From Candidatus Nezhaarchaeales archaeon (lineage in GTDB: Archaea > Thermoproteota > Methanomethylicia > Nezhaarchaeales > JAWCJE01): a stretch of 64,000 bases of DNA. This document shows, one piece after another, positions 1-59,620 of this stretch. The notes beneath the pieces were generated by a model, which did no database searches, was not told the DNA's origin, and worked only from the letters and a program-made list of their open reading frames with translations. Made by a program: the position numbers and the translations under genes. Positions within the stretch are counted from its first letter, which is position 1; each line of letters starts with the position of its first letter. The DNA lies in assembly GCA_038853715.1 (NCBI GenBank), contig JAWCJE010000002.1, positions 1 to 64,000 on the forward strand. Direction: 5' to 3'.

Positions 1-1003
1 AAATCGGCTCAATACTGCTCCAATACACCGGTTTGCTCGGCTCCCTTAAGGCGCTCTTAATTAAGTATGCCTTAATCCGTTTATGAGGAAGAACTAGCTC
101 AACGTTTTCTAAGAGGCGCTTAACGTGAGCTTTAGCGTAGAGCGTGATGCGGTAGTAATCGTTATTGAGACGTCCATAGTTTGTCGTTCTGCCTTTAGGC
201 GTTGTGTAAAGGTGCACCCTGTACCCGCGCTGTTTAAGCGCATTGTACAACGGCTCAACGACGTATACCTTCTCGTTGGGCACCGTAACCTTGAACTCCG
301 TGGTCCTTTCTTCATGGCTATGCGCATACACCGAGCCTTCGGCGTCAATGGTTATGTTGAGCGCGCTGTAAAGCTTTACGTCGCTATCTATATGCGTTGG
401 AGTACGCCGCTCAAGGAGCCACCAGTAGCTCCTGAGCGGCAACAGAGTCCATAGTTCCCACCCATACTTTCCTTTATCACTTCGGTACGGTGCTACGCCC
501 ACATGCCCGTACTTGCCGAAAACCTCCTTGAATAGGAGGGCTAAGTACGGGTCGGGCGTTCTCAGTATTACTTGTACCTGTTGACCATTCTGCATTACGC
601 ATCCATCGGTGTGCGCAAAGAACCATAGCCTAAGCTTCTCCACGCCGTCGCCGTCGAAGTCGCGCTTGGCGTACTTTGTACGCGCTAACTGTAACGCCGT
701 TACATTATCACGTACTTTAACGTTCATTTCATGTCTCATCCACCTCCACAGCGTAGTCAACGGTACGCTAAGGCGCTTCGACAGCTTTCTCACCGACGTG
801 CCCTTGTTCCAATGTAGCTCTTCGACTAACGCTTTAAAGCGCTGGTTATCGTTAACCGCCCCGTCCATTACCTTCTTTTTCACCTCCTCAGAGATCATCG
901 CTAGCAACTCTTCAGGAACCACTATCGTTCTCGGCTTACGCCTAGTTAGCTTTATTGTGAGCTTTAACCCTGCTTGGAGGGGTCGTGCGACCCTTTCCCC
1001 CAT
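1..1003 (-). CDS. HTH / LAGLIDADG-like protein of a mobile module (3' end outside window)
   Basis: The reading frame opens with ATG at 1003 and is still open at base 1, giving 334 residues. Seen: a helix-turn-helix-like stretch near residues 70-90 (VRKLSKRLSVPLTTLWRWM), then two LAGLIDADG-like motifs, LWFFAHTDGCV near 126-136 and NITIDAEGSVY near 216-226, each followed by about 75 residues of beta-beta-alpha character. The acidic residue before the last glycine is kept in both (D and E). The end (LREPSKPVYWSSIEPI) matches the start of the coiled-coil piece found at 13.2 and 55.1 kb, so the full protein probably has a C-terminal coiled coil. It follows the zinc protein at 1017-1307 by 13 bases. 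Function inferred only: DNA-binding homing-endonuclease-like protein of a mobile element. Confidence 0.7.
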   Translation of the reverse strand, partial: MGERVARPLQAGLKLTIKLTRRKPRTIVVPEELLAMISEEVKKKVMDGAVNDNQRFKALVEELHWNKGTSVRKLSKRLSVPLTTLWRWMRHEMNVKVRDNVTALQLARTKYAKRDFDGDGVEKLRLWFFAHTDGCVMQNGQQVQVILRTPDPYLALLFKEVFGKYGHVGVAPYRSDKGKYGWELWTLLPLRSYWWLLERRTPTHIDSDVKLYSALNITIDAEGSVYAHSHEERTTEFKVTVPNEKVYVVEPLYNALKQRGYRVHLYTTPKGRTTNYGRLNNDYYRITLYAKAHVKRLLENVELVLPHKRIKAYLIKSALREPSKPVYWSSIEPI

Positions 1004-1016
1004 TTAAACCACTCCT

Positions 1017-1307
1017 TTACGGTAACTCTCCAATCCTTATCATTGTTTCCTCGTACTCGCTCCACATCAGTAGCTGCTTGTCACGGTGGTACTTACGCCT
1101 GCACTCCTCGCATATTATGCCCCACACGTACCCGTCCAGCACTAGTAGCATTATCATTGGCGTGTCTATCGGGTCGCCGCAAACATCGCATAGTACTACG
1201 CCGTCAGGTATGGGTACGACGTGCTCGACGTTTCCGTACTCGTCCATGATCTTTATGCTGCGGTTCCTGGCGAACCTGTGCCTGCTAGCCACAACCACGA
1301 AGTCCAC
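1017..1307 (-). CDS. Small zinc-binding protein of the same mobile module
   Basis: A 96-residue protein with a likely zinc knuckle: CDVC near residue 41 and CEEC near residue 68, the latter followed by RRKYH. It lies directly upstream of the HTH/LAGLIDADG-like gene in the same direction. Its C-terminus (MIRIGELP then stop) recurs at two other loci in front of the same gene family: a 46-residue truncated copy at 13756-13896 and a few codons at 28941-28967. I infer a two-gene mobile module. The molecular function is unknown; metal binding is inferred from the CxxC pairs. Confidence 0.65.
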   Translation of the reverse strand: MDFVVVASRHRFARNRSIKIMDEYGNVEHVVPIPDGVVLCDVCGDPIDTPMIMLLVLDGYVWGIICEECRRKYHRDKQLLMWSEYEETMIRIGELP

Positions 1308-1452
1308 GCGTTTCGCCTCGAAACATTTTTATAGCCCTGAAGCCCCTTTAGTGGCTTGGGAGGGGTCAGCAGTCCCCCTCGAAGGAGGACTACTGTTTTA
1401 ATCATCTTCATCGCGTCAGCCTTTCATCATACCCCTCCCAACTTCAACCCTT

Positions 1453-1614
1453 TTAAACTGCGGCTGACGAAAGGGTTGAAGCGTTCACCGGGGCCTCAAG
1501 GCCGACGCTTGAAGCACCCCTCCCGATGAATTGTTCGAGCAGGGCGCTGTTAACGCTTTTAGCCTTCTTAGCTTTGTTACGCTTTAAGAACCTCTCGGCT
1601 TCCTTACTGGTCAT
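1453..1614 (-). CDS. Small lysine-rich hypothetical protein
   Basis: A 53-residue frame with ATG at 1614, beginning MTSKEAERFLKRNKAKKAKS and ending in an Ala/Ser-rich tail. No known domain recognised. It overlaps the end of the short Cys-containing frame at 1604-1762 by 11 bases, as translationally coupled genes do. A decayed frame at 54276-54455 holds a similar segment (KEAEEFLKGG), suggesting a family tied to the same mobile debris. Weakly supported. Confidence 0.35.
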   Translation of the reverse strand: MTSKEAERFLKRNKAKKAKSVNSALLEQFIGRGASSVGLEAPVNASTLSSAAV

Positions 1615-1762
1615 TCCTCATCCCCAACGCTATGCTTACGTGAACGCTGCAAGGCTTGTATGCGTCGTGCAGGAAGTACTTACCGTCCCTCCAGTTCTGC
1701 TCCACCATACGGATTAAAGTACAGCCACACTTCCACTCAAATTCTTTTAGTTCGGAACGAAT
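1604..1762 (-). CDS. Short Cys-containing ORF, possibly 5'-truncated
   Basis: The open frame ends at 1604 and reads back to an in-frame stop just above 1762. It contains EFEWKCGCTLIRMVEQNW followed by a segment rich in D, H and C. The only ATG (1708) would remove the CGC motif, so either an unusual start (ATT at 1762) or truncation must be assumed. Lies in the accessory stretch between the zinc protein and the IS fragment. Function unknown. Confidence 0.3.
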   Translation of the reverse strand: MRSELKEFEWKCGCTLIRMVEQNWRDGKYFLHDAYKPCSVHVSIALGMRNDQ

Positions 1763-1875
1763 TCAATCGTTAATCCACCTTATGACCTCGTCATTGACAC
1801 TTATATACACTTACACCACTAACATCAATAGCTATAGGTCCATTAAACGCTCTTAAAGACCTATGTAATGGTATG

Positions 1876-2154
1876 TTAAGCCTTAAGTAGCCTCCTAATC
1901 CACGAGTAATCAACTGGTGGAAGCTTAGGGATTAACCTATTTAAGGCCTTGGTGAATCCTTTGAGCTGCCTAAAGGGCATTAAATAGCGGACAACGGCTA
2001 AGAACTCCACATACCTATCTGTAATCTTAAAGGGCCTACCAACCTTACCATTATTAATAAGCTCAAAATCATAATCATAGCAATCGAGGAAATCGAGGCT
2101 TAAAAGAAGCTCACCACGCCTAATAAGCCCCTCATCAACAACCCTCCAATACAC
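1876..2154 (-). pseudogene. Transposase N-terminal fragment
   Basis: A 92-residue frame containing NNGKVGRPFKITDRYVEFL and a following basic helical region ending YSWIRRLLKA. I read this as the N-terminal DNA-binding part of an IS4/IS5-like DDE transposase. The stop at 1876 falls where the family would run on into the catalytic domain, which is missing. It lies just inside the IS end at about 2201. The family name is tentative; truncation is clear from the length. Confidence 0.55.
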
Positions 2155-2201
2155 AAATTAAAATAAAACAAAAGAAGCTTAAAGAATTAAACCATAAAGC
2201 T
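1876..2201 (-). mobile_element. IS fragment with one terminal repeat and a truncated transposase gene
   Basis: The upstream end near 2201 reads, on the minus strand, AGCTTTATGGTTTAATTC, which resembles the terminal inverted repeats of the short elements at 15592-15702 and 49236-49339. It runs into a gene for the first 92 residues of a transposase. The same end plus the first codons recurs at 48064-48164, at the edge of the nitrogen island. The other end of the IS is not recognisable, so this copy is broken. Confidence 0.6.
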
Positions 2202-2545
2202 AAATATTTTTATTTCGTTAGAATGACGTCAAGAGAGACAATCAAATACCATTCAGTTGTATATCGCTATGAATGTTTAAAGTTACGTAACCGTTACGAC
2301 GTTCTCCTTCTAGTAATAGGTCTAAGCTTGCCTACTAGGATTGCAGTTACTCAGTAAGCTGAGTACTTTGCTTCTTGTATCGCTTAGCCTTGCCAACTTG
2401 CATTAAGACAGAAATGGCATCCTCCATATAAATATGGGGTTCAAACCGAGGAGTGAAATAGACTTTATATGTAAAAAGAGCAAAGATTTTAGCGACTTTT
2501 AGCCGAAAAAGGCGCTCAATTCTGCCTATTTTTAGGCTTTTGAGA

Positions 2546-2664
2546 TGGTGCCGGGGGAGGGATTTGAACCCTCGGCAATCCGGTCTTTAGCCTCCCATAA
2601 AGGGAATCAGCCGGACGCTCTCCCAGGTTCCTCCCCATACAATATGGGACTGAGCTACCCCGGC
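2546..2664 (-). tRNA. tRNA-Phe (GAA) with two introns
   Basis: Acceptor stem GCCGGGG/CCCCGGC with discriminator A and an encoded CCA (2546-2548). The anticodon stem TCCGG/CCGGA encloses a loop that becomes CTGAAGA once about 20 bases are removed: anticodon GAA with G37, as in archaeal tRNA-Phe. A second insert of about 22 bases sits in the D loop and folds as CCCATA-TTG-TATGGG. Both introns are outside the canonical 37/38 site; the anticodon one interrupts or abuts the anticodon. Exact splice sites are ambiguous by a base or two. Confidence 0.9.
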
Positions 2665-2797
2665 GGTCATCATAAAAATGGGGAAGGATCTATATTAAGC
2701 TCACTCTTTTCAACATATTTATAAAGTTCACGGGTTTTAACCATGCAGCTTTACGTTACCCATTACTAATATAATGGATGTAACGACCACCTCTTAA

Positions 2798-8511: not shown

Positions 8512-8588
8512 TGGTGCGGCCGCCGGGATTTGAACCCGGGTCCTCAGCGTGGCAGGCTGATGTCCTAACCAAGCTAGACTACGGCCGC
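8512..8588 (-). tRNA. tRNA-Gly (GCC)
   Basis: Acceptor GCGGCCG/CGGCCGC with discriminator A and encoded CCA (8512-8514); anticodon arm TCAGC-CTGCCAC-GCTGA gives anticodon GCC; T loop TTCAAAT. No intron. Confidence 0.95.
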
Positions 8589-8674: not shown

Positions 8675-8732
8675 GTTGCAAAACTCTTAATGAATGCTTT
8701 ACTAGTTAACTTAGGTAGTGGAGTTTTGCAAT
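8675..8732. repeat. Short terminal-inverted-repeat element, copy A
   Basis: Begins GTTGCAAAACTC and ends GAGTTTTGCAAT, an inverted repeat of about 12 bases enclosing a 34-base core with ACTAGTTAACTT. A close copy in the opposite orientation lies at 59561-59620. Too short to code; probably a miniature mobile element or a REP-like hairpin. Sits between tRNA-Gly and tRNA-Pro. Confidence 0.6.
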
Positions 8733-8889
8733 AAGCTCATAGTTTACTCGTTTAAGTAAAATTCGTCTGAAAACTCTTAAGCTATTCCTAAGGCTTCGGT
8801 ATGTTGGGTTGGCCAGCTTTATTAGGAGTTTTCGGGTGGGTTTCTAGGTAAAATAAAAGTTTTTATAAGGTTCGCGTAAAGTGATGGTA

Positions 8890-13246: not shown

Positions 13247-13759
13247 TTACGGAGTTAAAACCTTCCTACTAGGTTTAAGGGGCTTTCGGCCTCGGAAGTA
13301 AGCCTCAATACGCCTTTCAAGCTCACTGAACGCTTCATCGTACTTTTCTTTAAGCGCCTTAAGTGTCTTACACGCTTCGGCTCTAAGCCTAGCCCTCTCA
13401 TCCTCGTAATGCTTTACGTTAACCTTTCCTCGCCTACACTTCCCGTTAAGGGAGCTCCACGCCTCGTGGAGACTCCTTACGATAAGCTTGCTTTCCATCA
13501 ACATCTCCTCGTAAACTGCTTCAATCTTACTGTACATCGGTTCAATAGTATTCCAGTATGCCGGTTTAATGACGTACGCTTTCTCTATGTTCGGTAGCTC
13601 CTTCTCGAAAATCTTAACCACCTTAGGATGTAGTGCTTCCCTGCTCTTCTCTAGGAACTCCTTTAACGCTTCGTGGAGCCTACCAGCGAAGAGTAGGCAT
13701 AGCTGTTCCGCTATTAATCGTTCGCGGTTGAAGAAGGCCGTAAGCGATGGCTGAGTCAT
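13247..13759 (-). CDS. Coiled-coil protein, rearranged copy of the mobile-module protein
   Basis: A 170-residue, highly charged helical protein. The N-terminus (AFFNRERL) matches that of the module protein at 28429-28944 (AFSNRERL); the C-terminal part (KPAYWNTIEPMYSKIEA, then EKYDEAFSELERRIEAY) matches the tail of the protein at 1-1003 and the decayed copy at 55110-55480. The HTH and LAGLIDADG-like parts are missing. I read it as an internally deleted or recombined copy inserted between Rpp29 and S17. Its start overlaps the stop of the truncated zinc protein (ATGA). May or may not be expressed. Confidence 0.55.
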   Translation of the reverse strand: MTQPSLTAFFNRERLIAEQLCLLFAGRLHEALKEFLEKSREALHPKVVKIFEKELPNIEKAYVIKPAYWNTIEPMYSKIEAVYEEMLMESKLIVRSLHEAWSSLNGKCRRGKVNVKHYEDERARLRAEACKTLKALKEKYDEAFSELERRIEAYFRGRKPLKPSRKVLTP

Positions 13760-13896
13760 AGTGGCTCACCTATCCTCACCATTGTTTCCTTGTACTCGTT
13801 CCACGCGAGTAACGGCTTATCGCCGTGATACCTACGCCTGCATCCTTCACATATTACGCCCCATACGTATCCGTCCAGCATCAGTAGCATTATCAT
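13756..13896 (-). pseudogene. Truncated zinc protein of the mobile module
   Basis: A 46-residue frame, MIMLLMLDGYVWGVICEGC..., closely matching residues 52-96 of the protein at 1017-1307 (MIMLLVLDGYVWGIICEEC...). The first CxxC pair is lost, so it cannot form the full zinc site. The break lies at about 13897, right before the retained segment. Same order relative to the downstream gene as at 1 kb. Confidence 0.65.
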
Positions 13897-13952
13897 GTTA
13901 AGGATCCTTGGGTAGTAACGTTAAGAAGCCCGGCTTCACGTTTGACCCATCT

Positions 13953-15119: not shown

Positions 15120-15429
15120 TAATCTTCCCTCTGTTCGGCGTCTTTAAGACGCTTTTAAAGATTATGCTTAAAAAGATTATGCTTAACGCTTTGCTTAAAC
15201 CTCCTTTGAAGTAACTGAAGGTTTACACGGTCTCCATTATGGTCTCTAGTAAAATACTATTTTTAAGTAATCCGATTAAGCTTTTCCTGGCTCGAAACTC
15301 CACTAAAAATATAGGTTTAAACGTTAAACTTAACCTATACTTCCTAAATTGGAGATAGCTTTCTCCTAACCATTATTTCTAATGGAGGTCTCGAAAATAT
15401 GTCTCCGCATGGGTTAACATTCGAAGGCC

Positions 15430-15490
15430 GAACTCAAGGTCCTCCTCAAACTCACCGAACCCCCCATCGTATTATCCCTTAGGCTTTTCC
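15430..15490 (-). pseudogene. Remnant of the module coiled-coil gene
   Basis: Minus-strand bases here read YDGGFGEFEEDLE, in line with YDEAFSELERRIE of the coiled-coil protein at 13247-13759; an in-frame stop precedes it. DNA similarity is visible around CTCACCGAACCCCCCATCGT versus CTCACTGAACGCTTCATCGT. With the element at 15592-15702 this accounts for part of the 600-base gap between S3 and L22; the rest (15120-15429) holds nothing I recognise. Confidence 0.4.
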
Positions 15491-15591
15491 AACACCCTTT
15501 ACACCTCAGCCCGCCTGTTTTACTTGGTATTGCTTCCAACTAATGCGTCCTAACTTCCACAGCCCTTTAAGTTCTTACCACTTCAGATTTA

Positions 15592-28428: not shown

Positions 28429-28944
28429 CTATCTTCTTAACGCGAAGACTTTCTTAAACAGAAGCGCCAAGTACGGGTCAGGCGTATTGAGCACTACTAA
28501 TACCTGTTGCCAGTATCGCTTTACACATCCATCGGTATGCGCTAAGAACCATAGTTTAAGCTTTTCCACGTCGCTACCGTTGAAGTCGCGCTTAACATAC
28601 TTCATGTTCGCCAACCGTAAGGCCGTCATTTTATCACGTACCTTAATGTTTAGCTTACGCTTCATCCACCAATGTAGCGTGGTATGTGTTATGTTTAGGC
28701 GCTTTGAGAGCTTACTTACCGACACACCCCTACCCCAATGTAGCTCCTCAACTAACACTTTGAAGCATTGGTCGGCGTCGAGAGCCTCATCCATCACTAC
28801 CTTCCTCGCCTCCTCAGAAAGCATAGCTAGTAACTCTTCAGGAATCGCTATCTCCCTAGGTTTGTTGAAGTTCACCGTTAACGTTAACCCTGTTTGGACG
28901 GGTGTTAAGCGTTCGCGGTTAGAGAATGCTATAGGTGATGTCAT
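28429..28944 (-). pseudogene. Truncated HTH/LAGLIDADG-like mobile-module protein
   Basis: A 171-residue frame matching residues 1-160 of the protein at 1-1003: IAIPEELLAMLSEEARK, HTH VSKLSKRLNITHTTLHWWM, first LAGLIDADG-like motif LKLWFLAHTDGCV, then PDPYLALLFKKVFALRR and stop. The second motif and coiled coil are absent, so it cannot be a complete nuclease. Just upstream (28941-28967) the last codons of the zinc protein (IRMGETP, stop overlapping ATG) survive. A broken copy between IleRS and the 28989 ORF. Confidence 0.65.
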
Positions 28945-28988
28945 GGCGTCTCACCCATCCTTATCGGGCGCTTTAAGCATACGCCGCC

Positions 28989-46532: not shown

Positions 46533-47852
46533 TTGCTTAAAACCTTTTCAAAGCTTGATGAAGAGCTGGGAATACTTTATTATGCTTCGGGCCCCAAAGC
46601 GCTTAAAGGTAGACTTAGACAGTTAATCGAAGACTTCATAGTGGAGGAAATTCTACATCATAAACCGAGCGGGGGGAGCGGTAATTATACGTTCTTCACC
46701 TTAAAGAAGGGCGGGATAGATACCAATCGGGCCCTGTTGATGATAGCTAGAGCGTTAGGCTTAAGTGTTGACATGTTTAACGTAGCCGGCATGAAGGATG
46801 CTAAAGCGTTAACTAAACAGTTCGTAACGGTACGCGCGCCGCCTGAAGCTTTAGCATCCTTAAAGGTGCGGGGTGTATCCATTGAGGGCGTTGAAAGGGT
46901 TTCGAAGCCTCTACTTAAGAGGTGCATAAGGGGGAACTTGTTTAGAGTTACCATTAGGGGGTTGAGACTAGCTAAGGAGGAAATAGCGGAGGTGATTAAG
47001 GAGTTATGGCAACAGGTAGTCGAGTTCGGCGGCCTACCCAACTATTACGGCTATCAGCGTTTCGGAACGGTAAGAAGTAATACTCATAAGGTTGGAAAGC
47101 TCCTAGTTCAAGGGAGGGTTAAGGACGCTGTCCTAGAATTTTTAGCCCACCCCTACCCAAACGAGGCGCGTGATGCTTACGAGGCGCGAAAGGAGTTAAG
47201 CGAAACCCTCGACTTCGCTAAGGCGTTAAAACGGTTCCCCCGGAGGTTAACATACGAAATAGCAATGCTAAGACATCTGGCTAAACGTTCCGACGACTAC
47301 GTAGGAGCCTTAAGGAGGTTGCCTTTAAGGGTTTTAAAGCTCTTCATCCAAGCCTACCAGTCGTACCTATTTAACAGGGTCCTTTCATCACGTATTGAAT
47401 GGGCGGGAAATCTGCGGGCATTAGTTGATGGTGATAGGCTTCAACCTTTAAATGGTGAAGGCTTCAGTTTTACGGTTACTAAATCCTCAATAAGTGAGGC
47501 TAAGGCCATGCTTAATTCAGGTAGGGCCTTTCTAATCTTACCGGTTTTAGGCTTTAATAGTTTAAGGTTTGAAGGAAGCTATAAGCCGATCGTTAAGGAC
47601 ATTTTGGAGGAGGAAGGCGTTAAGCTTGAAGACTTTAAGGTTTCCCTATTCCCCGATTTAAGGTTTCCAGGCTCCTTTAGGCGCGCCTCGGTATTAATCA
47701 AGGGCTTAGTAATAGATGAAGCGCAGCCTGATGAAGTTAATGAGGGGTGTTTAAAGGTACGTATAAGCTATGAGCTTGAAAGAGGGGCTTACGCAACAAT
47801 CTTTCTAAGGGAACTCATAAAGCCTTCAGATCCTCTAGCATCCGGCTTTTAA
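46533..47852 (+). CDS. truD: tRNA pseudouridine-13 synthase TruD
   Basis: A 439-residue TruD. Catalytic motif AGMKDAKALTKQ near residues 85-96, YGYQRFGTVRSNTHKVGK near 170-187, inserted TRUD domain. Modifies U13 of tRNAs. TTG start at 46533, 18 bases after pth2. Its last 50 bases lie inside the tmk-derived direct repeat; truD and tmk evidently were convergent, overlapping neighbours before the island came in. Confidence 0.93.
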   Translation: MLKTFSKLDEELGILYYASGPKALKGRLRQLIEDFIVEEILHHKPSGGSGNYTFFTLKKGGIDTNRALLMIARALGLSVDMFNVAGMKDAKALTKQFVTVRAPPEALASLKVRGVSIEGVERVSKPLLKRCIRGNLFRVTIRGLRLAKEEIAEVIKELWQQVVEFGGLPNYYGYQRFGTVRSNTHKVGKLLVQGRVKDAVLEFLAHPYPNEARDAYEARKELSETLDFAKALKRFPRRLTYEIAMLRHLAKRSDDYVGALRRLPLRVLKLFIQAYQSYLFNRVLSSRIEWAGNLRALVDGDRLQPLNGEGFSFTVTKSSISEAKAMLNSGRAFLILPVLGFNSLRFEGSYKPIVKDILEEEGVKLEDFKVSLFPDLRFPGSFRRASVLIKGLVIDEAQPDEVNEGCLKVRISYELERGAYATIFLRELIKPSDPLASGF

Positions 47853-48063
47853 GAAAGGTCGTTACGATACCCCTTAGTTCCTGTTGAACTTCCTCCACCA
47901 GCCTATTAGTATTAACGACTGGATATCCACAGCTTACAGCTCTTTTAAGGAAGTTAGCCCTAACGATACGGAGGAAGCTTTCATTCTCAAACTTCTCAGG
48001 TTTAATTAAACGCTTCCTACGAAGCGATATTGATGGATCCACATCTAATATTATCGTTAAGTC
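47802..48063. repeat. Left direct repeat (truD/tmk 3' ends)
   Basis: About 262 bases nearly identical to 57109-57370. By eye only a handful of differences (for example AGATCC/AGACCC and CTTACAGC/CTTGCGGC). Includes the truD 3' end and the antisense tmk C-terminal coding region. It marks the left edge of the nitrogen island. Confidence 0.85.
47815..48063 (-). pseudogene. tmk 3'-end fragment
   Basis: Encodes the last roughly 75 residues of thymidylate kinase (DPSISLRRKRLIKPEKFENE to RMLEDLKAL), with two residue differences from the intact tmk at 57122. It joins an IS end at 48064. Cannot be functional: no P-loop. Recent copy, given the near identity. Confidence 0.85.
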
Positions 48064-48164
48064 TAGGCTAAGAAGAAGCTCAAGCGCCTAATAAGCCTCT
48101 CATCAACAACTAATACATAGATTAAACAAGACATAAGAAGCTTGAAGAATTAAGCCACAAAGCT
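48064..48164 (-). mobile_element. IS end fragment abutting the tmk fragment
   Basis: Matches 2100-2201: GCCTAATAAGCC, CTCATCAACAAC, AGAAGCTTGAAGAATTAAGC and the terminal CCACAAAGCT. Contains only the first codons of the transposase and its terminal repeat. Suggests IS involvement in making the island boundary. Confidence 0.6.
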
Positions 48165-49339: not shown

Positions 49340-49709
49340 GAGAATTTTAAAATGAAAAAGGAGTGATGTTTTGTTTTATCCTTTGCTTTTCCTTTATCCT
49401 TCACCTTTCCTCCGTTGTTGTTTTGGCTTCCTTAAAGCTTACTTCCGAGCCCAAAAGCCCCCCTCTTTACACCCTGTAACCCTTAGGGTTTAACGTACCT
49501 TCTGCCCTTTACGGGAGCGTAAATAGCTTCTCGCTGCAACGTGAATTACGGCTTCCGAAGGACTTAAAGTTTTAGCCCGCGTTTAAAGCATTAAATACGA
49601 TGCTCGTAGGCCTTCAGGCTTTTAACTACAACCTCTTTAAGCGGGGGTTAAGGCCGGTACTGCGCGTATAACCCTATTGAGGAGGCTATTAAGCTTGGAA
49701 AGCTCGTGG

Positions 49710-55109: not shown

Positions 55110-55480
55110 AAGTGACTTAAGGCATGCTTAATCAAGTGTTCCTTAAGGGAACCGAGCAAACCAATATATTGGAGCACCATCGAACCGATGTACGGCGAGA
55201 TTGAAAAATGTTTACGAGGAAATGCTGAAGGAAAACAAGCAAATTTAAAGAGCCACCACGAGGCGTGGCAAGCGCTAGCAGAAAAACGTAAGCGAAGGGA
55301 AACTACATATGCATGTTGTGAAAATGAGAGAGCTCACCTAGAGCCGAGGCGTGGAGAGCGCTTGAAACGCTAAAGGAGAAGTACGATGAAATGTTTAAAG
55401 AGCTCGAAAAGCGTATTGAGGCTTACCTCCAAGCCCAAAAGCTCCTCCTTGGAGGGTTTAAAAACAGGTTTAGTCTACAA
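55110..55480 (+). pseudogene. Decayed C-terminal part of the mobile-module protein
   Basis: Joining frames: LREPSKPIYWSTIEPMYGEI, then VYEEMLKENKQI, then HHEAWQALAEKRKRRETTY, then EKYDEMFKELEKRIEAYLQ. It bridges the end of the protein at 1-1003 (LREPSKPVYWSSIEPI) and the coiled coil at 13247-13759, which shows they are parts of one protein. Several frameshifts make it dead. Opposite strand to the other copies. Confidence 0.65.
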
Positions 55481-57086: not shown

Positions 57087-57108
57087 TCTATACCCTCATC
57101 TTCCATTA

Positions 57109-57370
57109 TTTCTAAGGGGACTCATAAAGCCTTCAGACCCTCTAGCATCCGGCTTTTAAGAAAGGTCGTTACGATACCCCTTAGTTCCTGTTGAACTTCC
57201 TCCACCAGCCTATTAGTATTAACGACTGGATATCCACAGCTTGCGGCTCTTTTAAGGAAGTTAGCCCTAACGATACGGAGGAAGCTTTCATTCTCAAACT
57301 TCTCAGGTTTAATTAAACGCTTCCTACGAAGCGATATTGATGGATCCACATCTAATATTATCGTTAAGTC
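57109..57370. repeat. Right direct repeat (tmk 3' end)
   Basis: Partner of 47802-48063. It contains the intact tmk 3' end plus about 50 bases that still read, on the plus strand, as the end of truD (LIKPSDPLASGF). Right edge of the island. Confidence 0.85.
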
Positions 57371-59537: not shown

Positions 59538-59560
59538 ACCTTTAAGTATTTCCAGAGCTT

Positions 59561-59620
59561 ATTGCAAAACTCCATTACTTAAGTTGACTGGTAAAGCGTT
59601 CGTTAAGAGTTTTTACAACA
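59561..59620. repeat. Short terminal-inverted-repeat element, copy B
   Basis: Inverted copy of 8675-8732: TTGCAAAACTCCATTACTTA at the left, GTTCGTTAAGAGTTTTTACA at the right. Lies between the two phosphomevalonate dehydratase genes, in a 197-base gap, which may uncouple them. Confidence 0.6.

Follow-up and report, generated by a model that had tools for sequence, protein, structure and literature searches.

A dispersed repeat family with a LAGLIDADG-superfamily gene in the genome of a Methanomethylicia archaeon

LAGLIDADG nucleases are familiar as enzymes that home to a single site, which lies within an intron, an intein or, in the case of yeast, one particular gene. The closest described counterparts of the system treated here are the WHO elements of Torulaspora and Lachancea and the yeast HO gene, which are free-standing LAGLIDADG genes outside of introns and inteins, with many pseudogenes, a few relocated copies and a fused zinc-binding domain (PMC7282813). 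Here, we describe a repeat from the first 64,000 nucleotides (nt) of contig JAWCJE010000002.1 (assembly GCA_038853715.1; this whole stretch is called the window in the following). In its full form, the repeat carries three genes, termed A, B and C, the last of which codes for a protein with a helix-turn-helix (HTH) and two LAGLIDADG motifs, and roughly 45 full, shortened or decayed copies of this gene cluster lie scattered in a single archaeal genome. The account that we tentatively prefer, without going so far as to call it probable, is that of a mobile interspersed repeat driven by C, which would spread by cutting and by one-ended repair copying from its 3′ terminus.

A dispersed family in one genome

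The host is an archaeon of the class Methanomethylicia, near Nezhaarchaeales; in a comparison of uL14, it is nearest to Thermoprotei archaeon B40_G2 and to Methanomethylicota. Its draft genome consists of 30 contigs (1.55 Mb, 95% complete), across which the DNA of window positions 1-1307 finds 37 matches and a profile of C finds 45, some of which are parts of one copy. A pattern of the 24 nt at the 3′ end of the repeat matches 30 times, compared to 0 matches for the reversed control. Contig ends fall inside the repeat in 13 of 60 cases, which is far above chance (p about 1e-11; the count was tallied by hand from match maps), and the family accounts for part of the breakup of the genome into 30 assembly pieces. 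The window itself starts at base 1 of contig C2, such that C of its first copy is cut by the assembly and not by biology.

The copies occupy many unrelated intergenic sites with no single conserved target site, and the mapped copies have no flanking gene in common. In 20 copies examined, the host genes end or begin beyond the borders of the element; the single exception is a copy on contig C24 (L025:1-1440, minus strand). There, the C frame continues in frame into the 3′ part of a putative coenzyme A (CoA)-transferase gene at the insertion point, a gene name that was read by eye and not obtained by a search. The setting is not that of a group I or bulge-helix-bulge intron, because the copies lie between genes rather than in a spliced structural RNA or protein gene. 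With respect to the extent of an insertion, the window copy at 13273-13911 sits between the genes for RNase P P29 and uS17 in the ribosomal operon S3-L29-P29-uS17-uL14. The gap between the two genes measures 777 nt here as compared to roughly 54-161 nt in seven relatives belonging to the same order, such that about 620 nt were inserted with little loss. Segmental duplication is insufficient as an explanation, since copies with one common 3′ terminus are found at many intergenic places whose surroundings bear no relation to each other. That the repeat family is mobile is well supported.

Among the genomes searched, the family is confined to this one. It is absent from the 60 nearest relatives and, by profile search, from 39 other genomes of its class; a scan of genome contigs with C gave no match, and 398 genomes of the phylum hold only remote single-copy homologues of C. 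An earlier reading of the window (hereafter the preliminary description) had suspected a possibly undescribed family of selfish elements that could move through its own endonuclease; of this, a multicopy, lineage-restricted, mobile family is supported. The same description had named homologues residing consistently inside viruses as an argument against it, and searches for such homologues came back empty: nothing related to A, B or C turned up in IMG/VR, and nothing related to C among phage and plasmid records. This also bears on the idea that the copies are what is left of a virus or plasmid that had integrated. Archaeal viruses are rich in small orphan genes, and A and B, which belong to no family, would suit such an origin. 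However, besides the negative searches, no capsid, replication or integrase genes are seen travelling with the repeat, and we consider this origin highly improbable.

Anatomy of the repeat and of protein C

The preliminary description had placed pieces of the repeat at five loci in the window. Four of them are clear (1-1307, 13273-13911, 28429-28967 and 55110-55446), whereas the piece at 15430-15490 is only a badly decayed tail with two stops and a weak local tblastn match (expectation value (E) 1.5e-4), and a sixth piece at 49437-49461 had been missed. Furthermore, copy 1 extends upstream through a promoter and a structured leader to about 1588. The features are as follows.

2-1003, minus strand: open reading frame (ORF) C of copy 1, first 334 residues, with the 3′ end missing at the contig end (intact copies have ~430 amino acids (aa))
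734-832, minus strand: putative helix-turn-helix of C, residues 58-90 (weak Pfam HTH matches, best HTH_psq, E 1.7e-4; three helices in the model)
596-634, minus strand: LAGLIDADG motif 1, LRLWFFAHTDGCV, with an invariant acidic Asp (from the alignment of copies)
329-373, minus strand: LAGLIDADG motif 2, LYSALNITIDAEGSV, with an invariant acidic Glu (from the alignment of copies)
992-1014, minus strand: junction between A and C, in which the last codons of gene B survive (EWFK, stop/ATG)
1017-1307, minus strand: ORF A, 96 residues from a GTG start, in which CDVC and CEEC form a putative zinc site
1327-1333, minus strand: TATAAAA box, located 20 nt before the start codon (GTG) of A and without variation among the five copies that retain it
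1334-1588, minus strand: structured leader (z -6.7 for folding), which contains a kink-turn-like UGAUGA/CUGA stem at 1358-1439
13273-13911, minus strand: copy 2, with the end of A, after which an internal deletion has joined the initial ~61 codons of B to the tail of C; 3′ terminus complete
15421-15513, minus strand: decayed C-tail fragment (weak), which includes 15430-15490
28429-28967, minus strand: copy 3, with the last codons of A, after which the opening codons of B run directly into the N-terminal half of C; the 3′ part is absent
49437-49461, plus strand: tail-only piece with a perfect 24-nt 3′ terminus and no C upstream
55110-55446, plus strand: copy 4, a 5′-truncated, frameshifted C tail with the 3′ terminus

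Intact layouts are found on other contigs (L024, L022, L028 and L030), where the genes follow each other as A-B-C and each stop overlaps the next start. A codes for 96 aa with CxxC motifs, B for 132-133 aa that start with QPSLTAFFKRERL (FNRERL or FKRERL) and end in IPREWFK, and C for about 430 aa with the HTH, the two LAGLIDADG motifs and a coiled coil. On the 2424-bp reference used for mapping, the leader takes up 1-475, A 475-766, B 768-1161 and C the part from 1161 onwards. The overlap between the stop of A and the next start had been correctly recognized before. In contrast, the proposed two-gene unit with one long FNRERL protein has to be abandoned: intact copies have three genes, FNRERL begins the separate gene B, and a single protein of FNRERL, HTH and LAGLIDADG parts is ruled out. 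The long protein came about because pieces from deletion fusions were joined, the ORFs P0003 (13250-13759) and P0004 (28432-28944) each consisting of B and C parts that a deletion has fused in frame. Copies that lack B have a join in common, at a GTGACG repeat that is present at both the A-B and the B-C junction. Copy 1 of the window lost B separately and retains its last codons (EWFK), a remnant at the A-C junction from which the deletion of B can be read.

The ~250-nt leader upstream of A folds far better than shuffled sequence, and the sequence of its apical hairpin varies among five copies, with the pairing kept in all five. The copy on contig C1 is only 68% identical, yet it still lies upstream of an A homologue, which argues that leader and A belong together. 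The UGAUGA...CUGA arrangement around the leader stem resembles a kink-turn. This likeness can be taken as a lead only, because the likeness to sR2 in Rfam falls far short of the cut-off: for window positions 900-2300, no Rfam family came out above the cut-off, the sR2-like C/D box match reached only E 1.1, and no intron was matched. As for the two smaller proteins, A gave sub-threshold zinc-finger matches only in a Pfam search, and B, a helical protein, gave no match.

Protein C is weakly matched by Pfam LAGLIDADG_3 in five of eight copies (best E 9e-4), with weak HTH matches preceding this domain. Copies of C from its own genome are thus below the Pfam cut-off or unmatched, whereas a remote homologue, L140, is above the cut-off with LAGLIDADG_3. 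A search with the sequence of C against the PDB gave no match, the only result from PADLOC was a weak similarity between the HTH of C and mad1, and none of A, B and C has a transposase match in Pfam beyond sub-threshold HTH matches. The Asp and Glu of the two motifs are invariant across eight copies and two remote homologues (E 1e-17 and 5e-13) that other members of the phylum carry in their genomes and that align with C over the HTH and LAGLIDADG parts. L140 (G337:C1:704825-708412) and L141 (G331:C13:10330-13869) are single free-standing HTH-LAGLIDADG genes and remote relatives of C.

In low-confidence AlphaFold models, C has two strands, an HTH-like group of helices, the succession alpha-beta-beta-alpha-beta-beta-alpha twice and then a long coiled coil. 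The top ranks of a Foldseek search against the PDB are LAGLIDADG proteins (bI3 maturase, I-Tsp061I, I-AniI, PI-SceI and I-SceI), and VIA-align finds the TliVMA intein (Z 7.5, 4.6 Å over 94 residues) and I-DmoI (Z 7.3, 3.2 Å over 79 residues), values of Z that are below 8 and by themselves weak and that cover mostly the first half; WhiA is also among the top fold matches. Since these predicted fold matches agree with the motifs and the sequence, we regard the assignment of C to the LAGLIDADG superfamily as firm. The preliminary description had taken the long protein for a LAGLIDADG protein and would have given this up had the fold been missing from the predictions; in this respect, the fold searches side with it.

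The copies of C have diverged considerably, with synonymous divergence (dS) mostly at 0.4-0.85. Pairwise ratios of nonsynonymous to synonymous divergence (dN/dS) of 0.22-0.39 say that the C protein has been under purifying selection while the copies spread. The divergence, together with the superfamily of C and its single free-standing relatives in other genomes of the phylum, is what one would expect if C were an ordinary free-standing homing gene that was duplicated by recombination, in which case between-strain homing with long duplication and decay, and not active transposition to new sites, would account for the copies. The unrelated flanks, the many intergenic places and the one common 3′ terminus do not fit this well, and we hold it to be unlikely, if worth serious consideration.

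Ends, neighbouring elements and a proposed mode of spread

On the mapping reference, 5′ breaks are spread from 110 to 2400, whereas the 3′ end is at one place, GCTTACTTCCGRGCCCRAAAGCCCC. Going by boundaries that were placed manually on the blast matches, the 3′ end is retained in 32 of 36 copies, as opposed to 7 of 35 for the leader or promoter (Fisher p 3e-9), and the internally deleted copies W2, C7, C2:86504 and C16 all keep the terminus. In 28 copies that had been found by protein profile and not by the terminus pattern, conservation is higher in the 24-nt terminus than in the coding DNA next to it (by 12 points, p 3e-7), and this holds for third codon positions as well (0.90 compared to 0.73). 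Such conservation at the DNA level suggests a cis-acting DNA end. No target duplications were detected: the similarity of 5′ and 3′ flanks, taken from approximate 5′ boundaries, is 4.4 nt, which equals that of shuffled pairs (4.6 nt).

The genome also harbors an insertion sequence (IS) family with an IS5-like DDE transposase, with about 13-17 matches that are mostly truncated and start with GCTTTGTGGCTTAATTCTTTAAGCTT. Remnants of it in the window lie at 1590-2208 (minus strand), adjoining copy 1, and at 48059-48164 (minus strand). Thus, the earlier statement that no transposase or integrase accompanies the repeat is correct for the inside of the element and has to be qualified for its surroundings. 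The IS5-like repeat was considered as the 5′ end of the element itself and ruled out, as this family is distinct from the element and has a 5′ end of its own.

The remnants touch several copies of the nuclease repeat (W, C15, C12 and C21), and C might accordingly be mere cargo of a non-autonomous passenger that depends on a different host recombinase acting in trans, for instance this transposase. The internally deleted copies with their 3′ terminus would in that case resemble miniature inverted-repeat transposable elements (MITEs), and there is a short inverted likeness between leader (TAAAGGGGCTT) and tail (AAGCCCCTTA), a terminal inverted repeat that is suggestive and that we do not claim, only five copies retaining this leader sequence. 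However, the 5′ end of the IS, GCTTTGTGGCTTAATTCTTTAAGCTTC, is unlike the terminus of the element, target duplications are missing, the 5′-truncated copies lack one end altogether, and C is under purifying selection. Furthermore, a Y1 transposase was not found, further transposase families not having been searched for. A passenger of this kind seems quite unlikely to us.

Three other known kinds of element were considered and rejected. Retrotransposition would require a reverse transcriptase, and RVT_1 has no match in the 95%-complete draft, with positive controls; IS200/IS605 elements use a Y1 HUH transposase, and PF01797 has no match in the draft. For PaREP2, no match to PaRep2b (PF07775) was found either.

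The spread by C-driven cutting and copying that we prefer would proceed as follows. The full unit consists of the structured leader with its promoter, the translationally coupled genes A, B and C and the 24-nt DNA terminus. C, guided by its HTH, would cut chromosomal DNA between genes, and the broken end would be repaired by copying an existing unit from the 3′ terminus. Copying would mostly stop early and the free end would be joined illegitimately, yielding dead, 5′-truncated copies. Short direct repeats would then create internal deletions. Longer copies with open C frames would sustain the movement of the family.

Several points weigh against this account. No complete copy has been assembled, the nearest to it (L024) being interrupted by a contig end. 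A common target sequence was not found among the copies, and both the cleavage site and the homing event are what we infer. The bases beyond the terminus are common only within subfamilies, which makes the exact 3′ end fuzzy, and the 5′ truncation could stem from later decay. Finally, A and B have no assigned role, and the models of C are of low confidence (predicted local distance difference test, pLDDT, 57-58).

A more far-reaching version of the C-driven account is doubtful, though conceivable. The repeat would then represent mobile DNA of a new class: in place of a transposase, a LAGLIDADG nuclease would open intergenic sites, and host repair would copy the unit one-endedly from the conserved 3′ terminus. 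Derivatives with 5′ truncations, like those of long interspersed nuclear elements (LINEs), and MITE-like ones would arise in this way without reverse transcription, with the leader RNA and the two accessory proteins taking part.

The window contains further repeats and one tRNA-like sequence. A 267-bp direct repeat (47797-48063 and 57104-57370) is 98% identical, the two parts being 9.3 kb apart, and a 59-bp inverted pair (8680-8738 and 59555-59613) is 90% complementary, with one arm just beyond tRNA-Gly (8512-8588). The tRNA-like sequence lies at about 2546-2670 (minus strand; GCCGGGGTAGCTCAG ... CCCCCGGCACCA) and is broken by two hairpin-like stretches; ARAGORN is silent on it, and it is possibly a two-intron tRNA.

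Comparison with known systems

In the literature that we searched, which lay mostly outside subscription journals, no dispersed LAGLIDADG elements of archaea were found. If the C-driven account is true, a LAGLIDADG nuclease can drive dispersed amplification, to ~45 places in a small archaeal genome, almost all of the mapped ones being intergenic. The interspersed repeats of archaea would furthermore include a transposase-free kind, and there would be a DNA-only model for 5′-truncated insertions.

The individual traits of the repeat have counterparts elsewhere. The fixed 3′ end with 5′-truncated copies is LINE-like and the internally deleted copies with their terminus are MITE-like; unlike with LINEs and MITEs, there is no reverse transcriptase in the genome, no target duplication and no transposase in the unit. 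PaREP2 of Pyrobaculum, which lacks a PaRep2b counterpart here, likewise comprises multicopy archaeal genes of unknown function. Free-standing and intron-encoded LAGLIDADG endonucleases of archaea (I-DmoI, I-Tsp061I) share the double-motif fold and the catalytic acids with C, but they sit in rRNA introns or occur as single genes, whereas C belongs to a repeat that also comprises accessory genes and has truncated derivatives.

By analogy, the repeat would seem to work most like the WHO elements of yeasts. Both have a free-standing LAGLIDADG nuclease with pseudogenes and a zinc-binding partner, which in the repeat is the separate protein A with its putative zinc site. Yet the repeat fails the one-target-gene feature of WHO elements: these insert next to a single target gene, a fragment of which is duplicated, whereas the copies here are dispersed over unrelated intergenic sites, with the HTH, the structured leader, gene B and a DNA terminus shared by the copies as additional features. 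C is a member of the LAGLIDADG superfamily, and as a mobile element the repeat is best called a homing-type variant.
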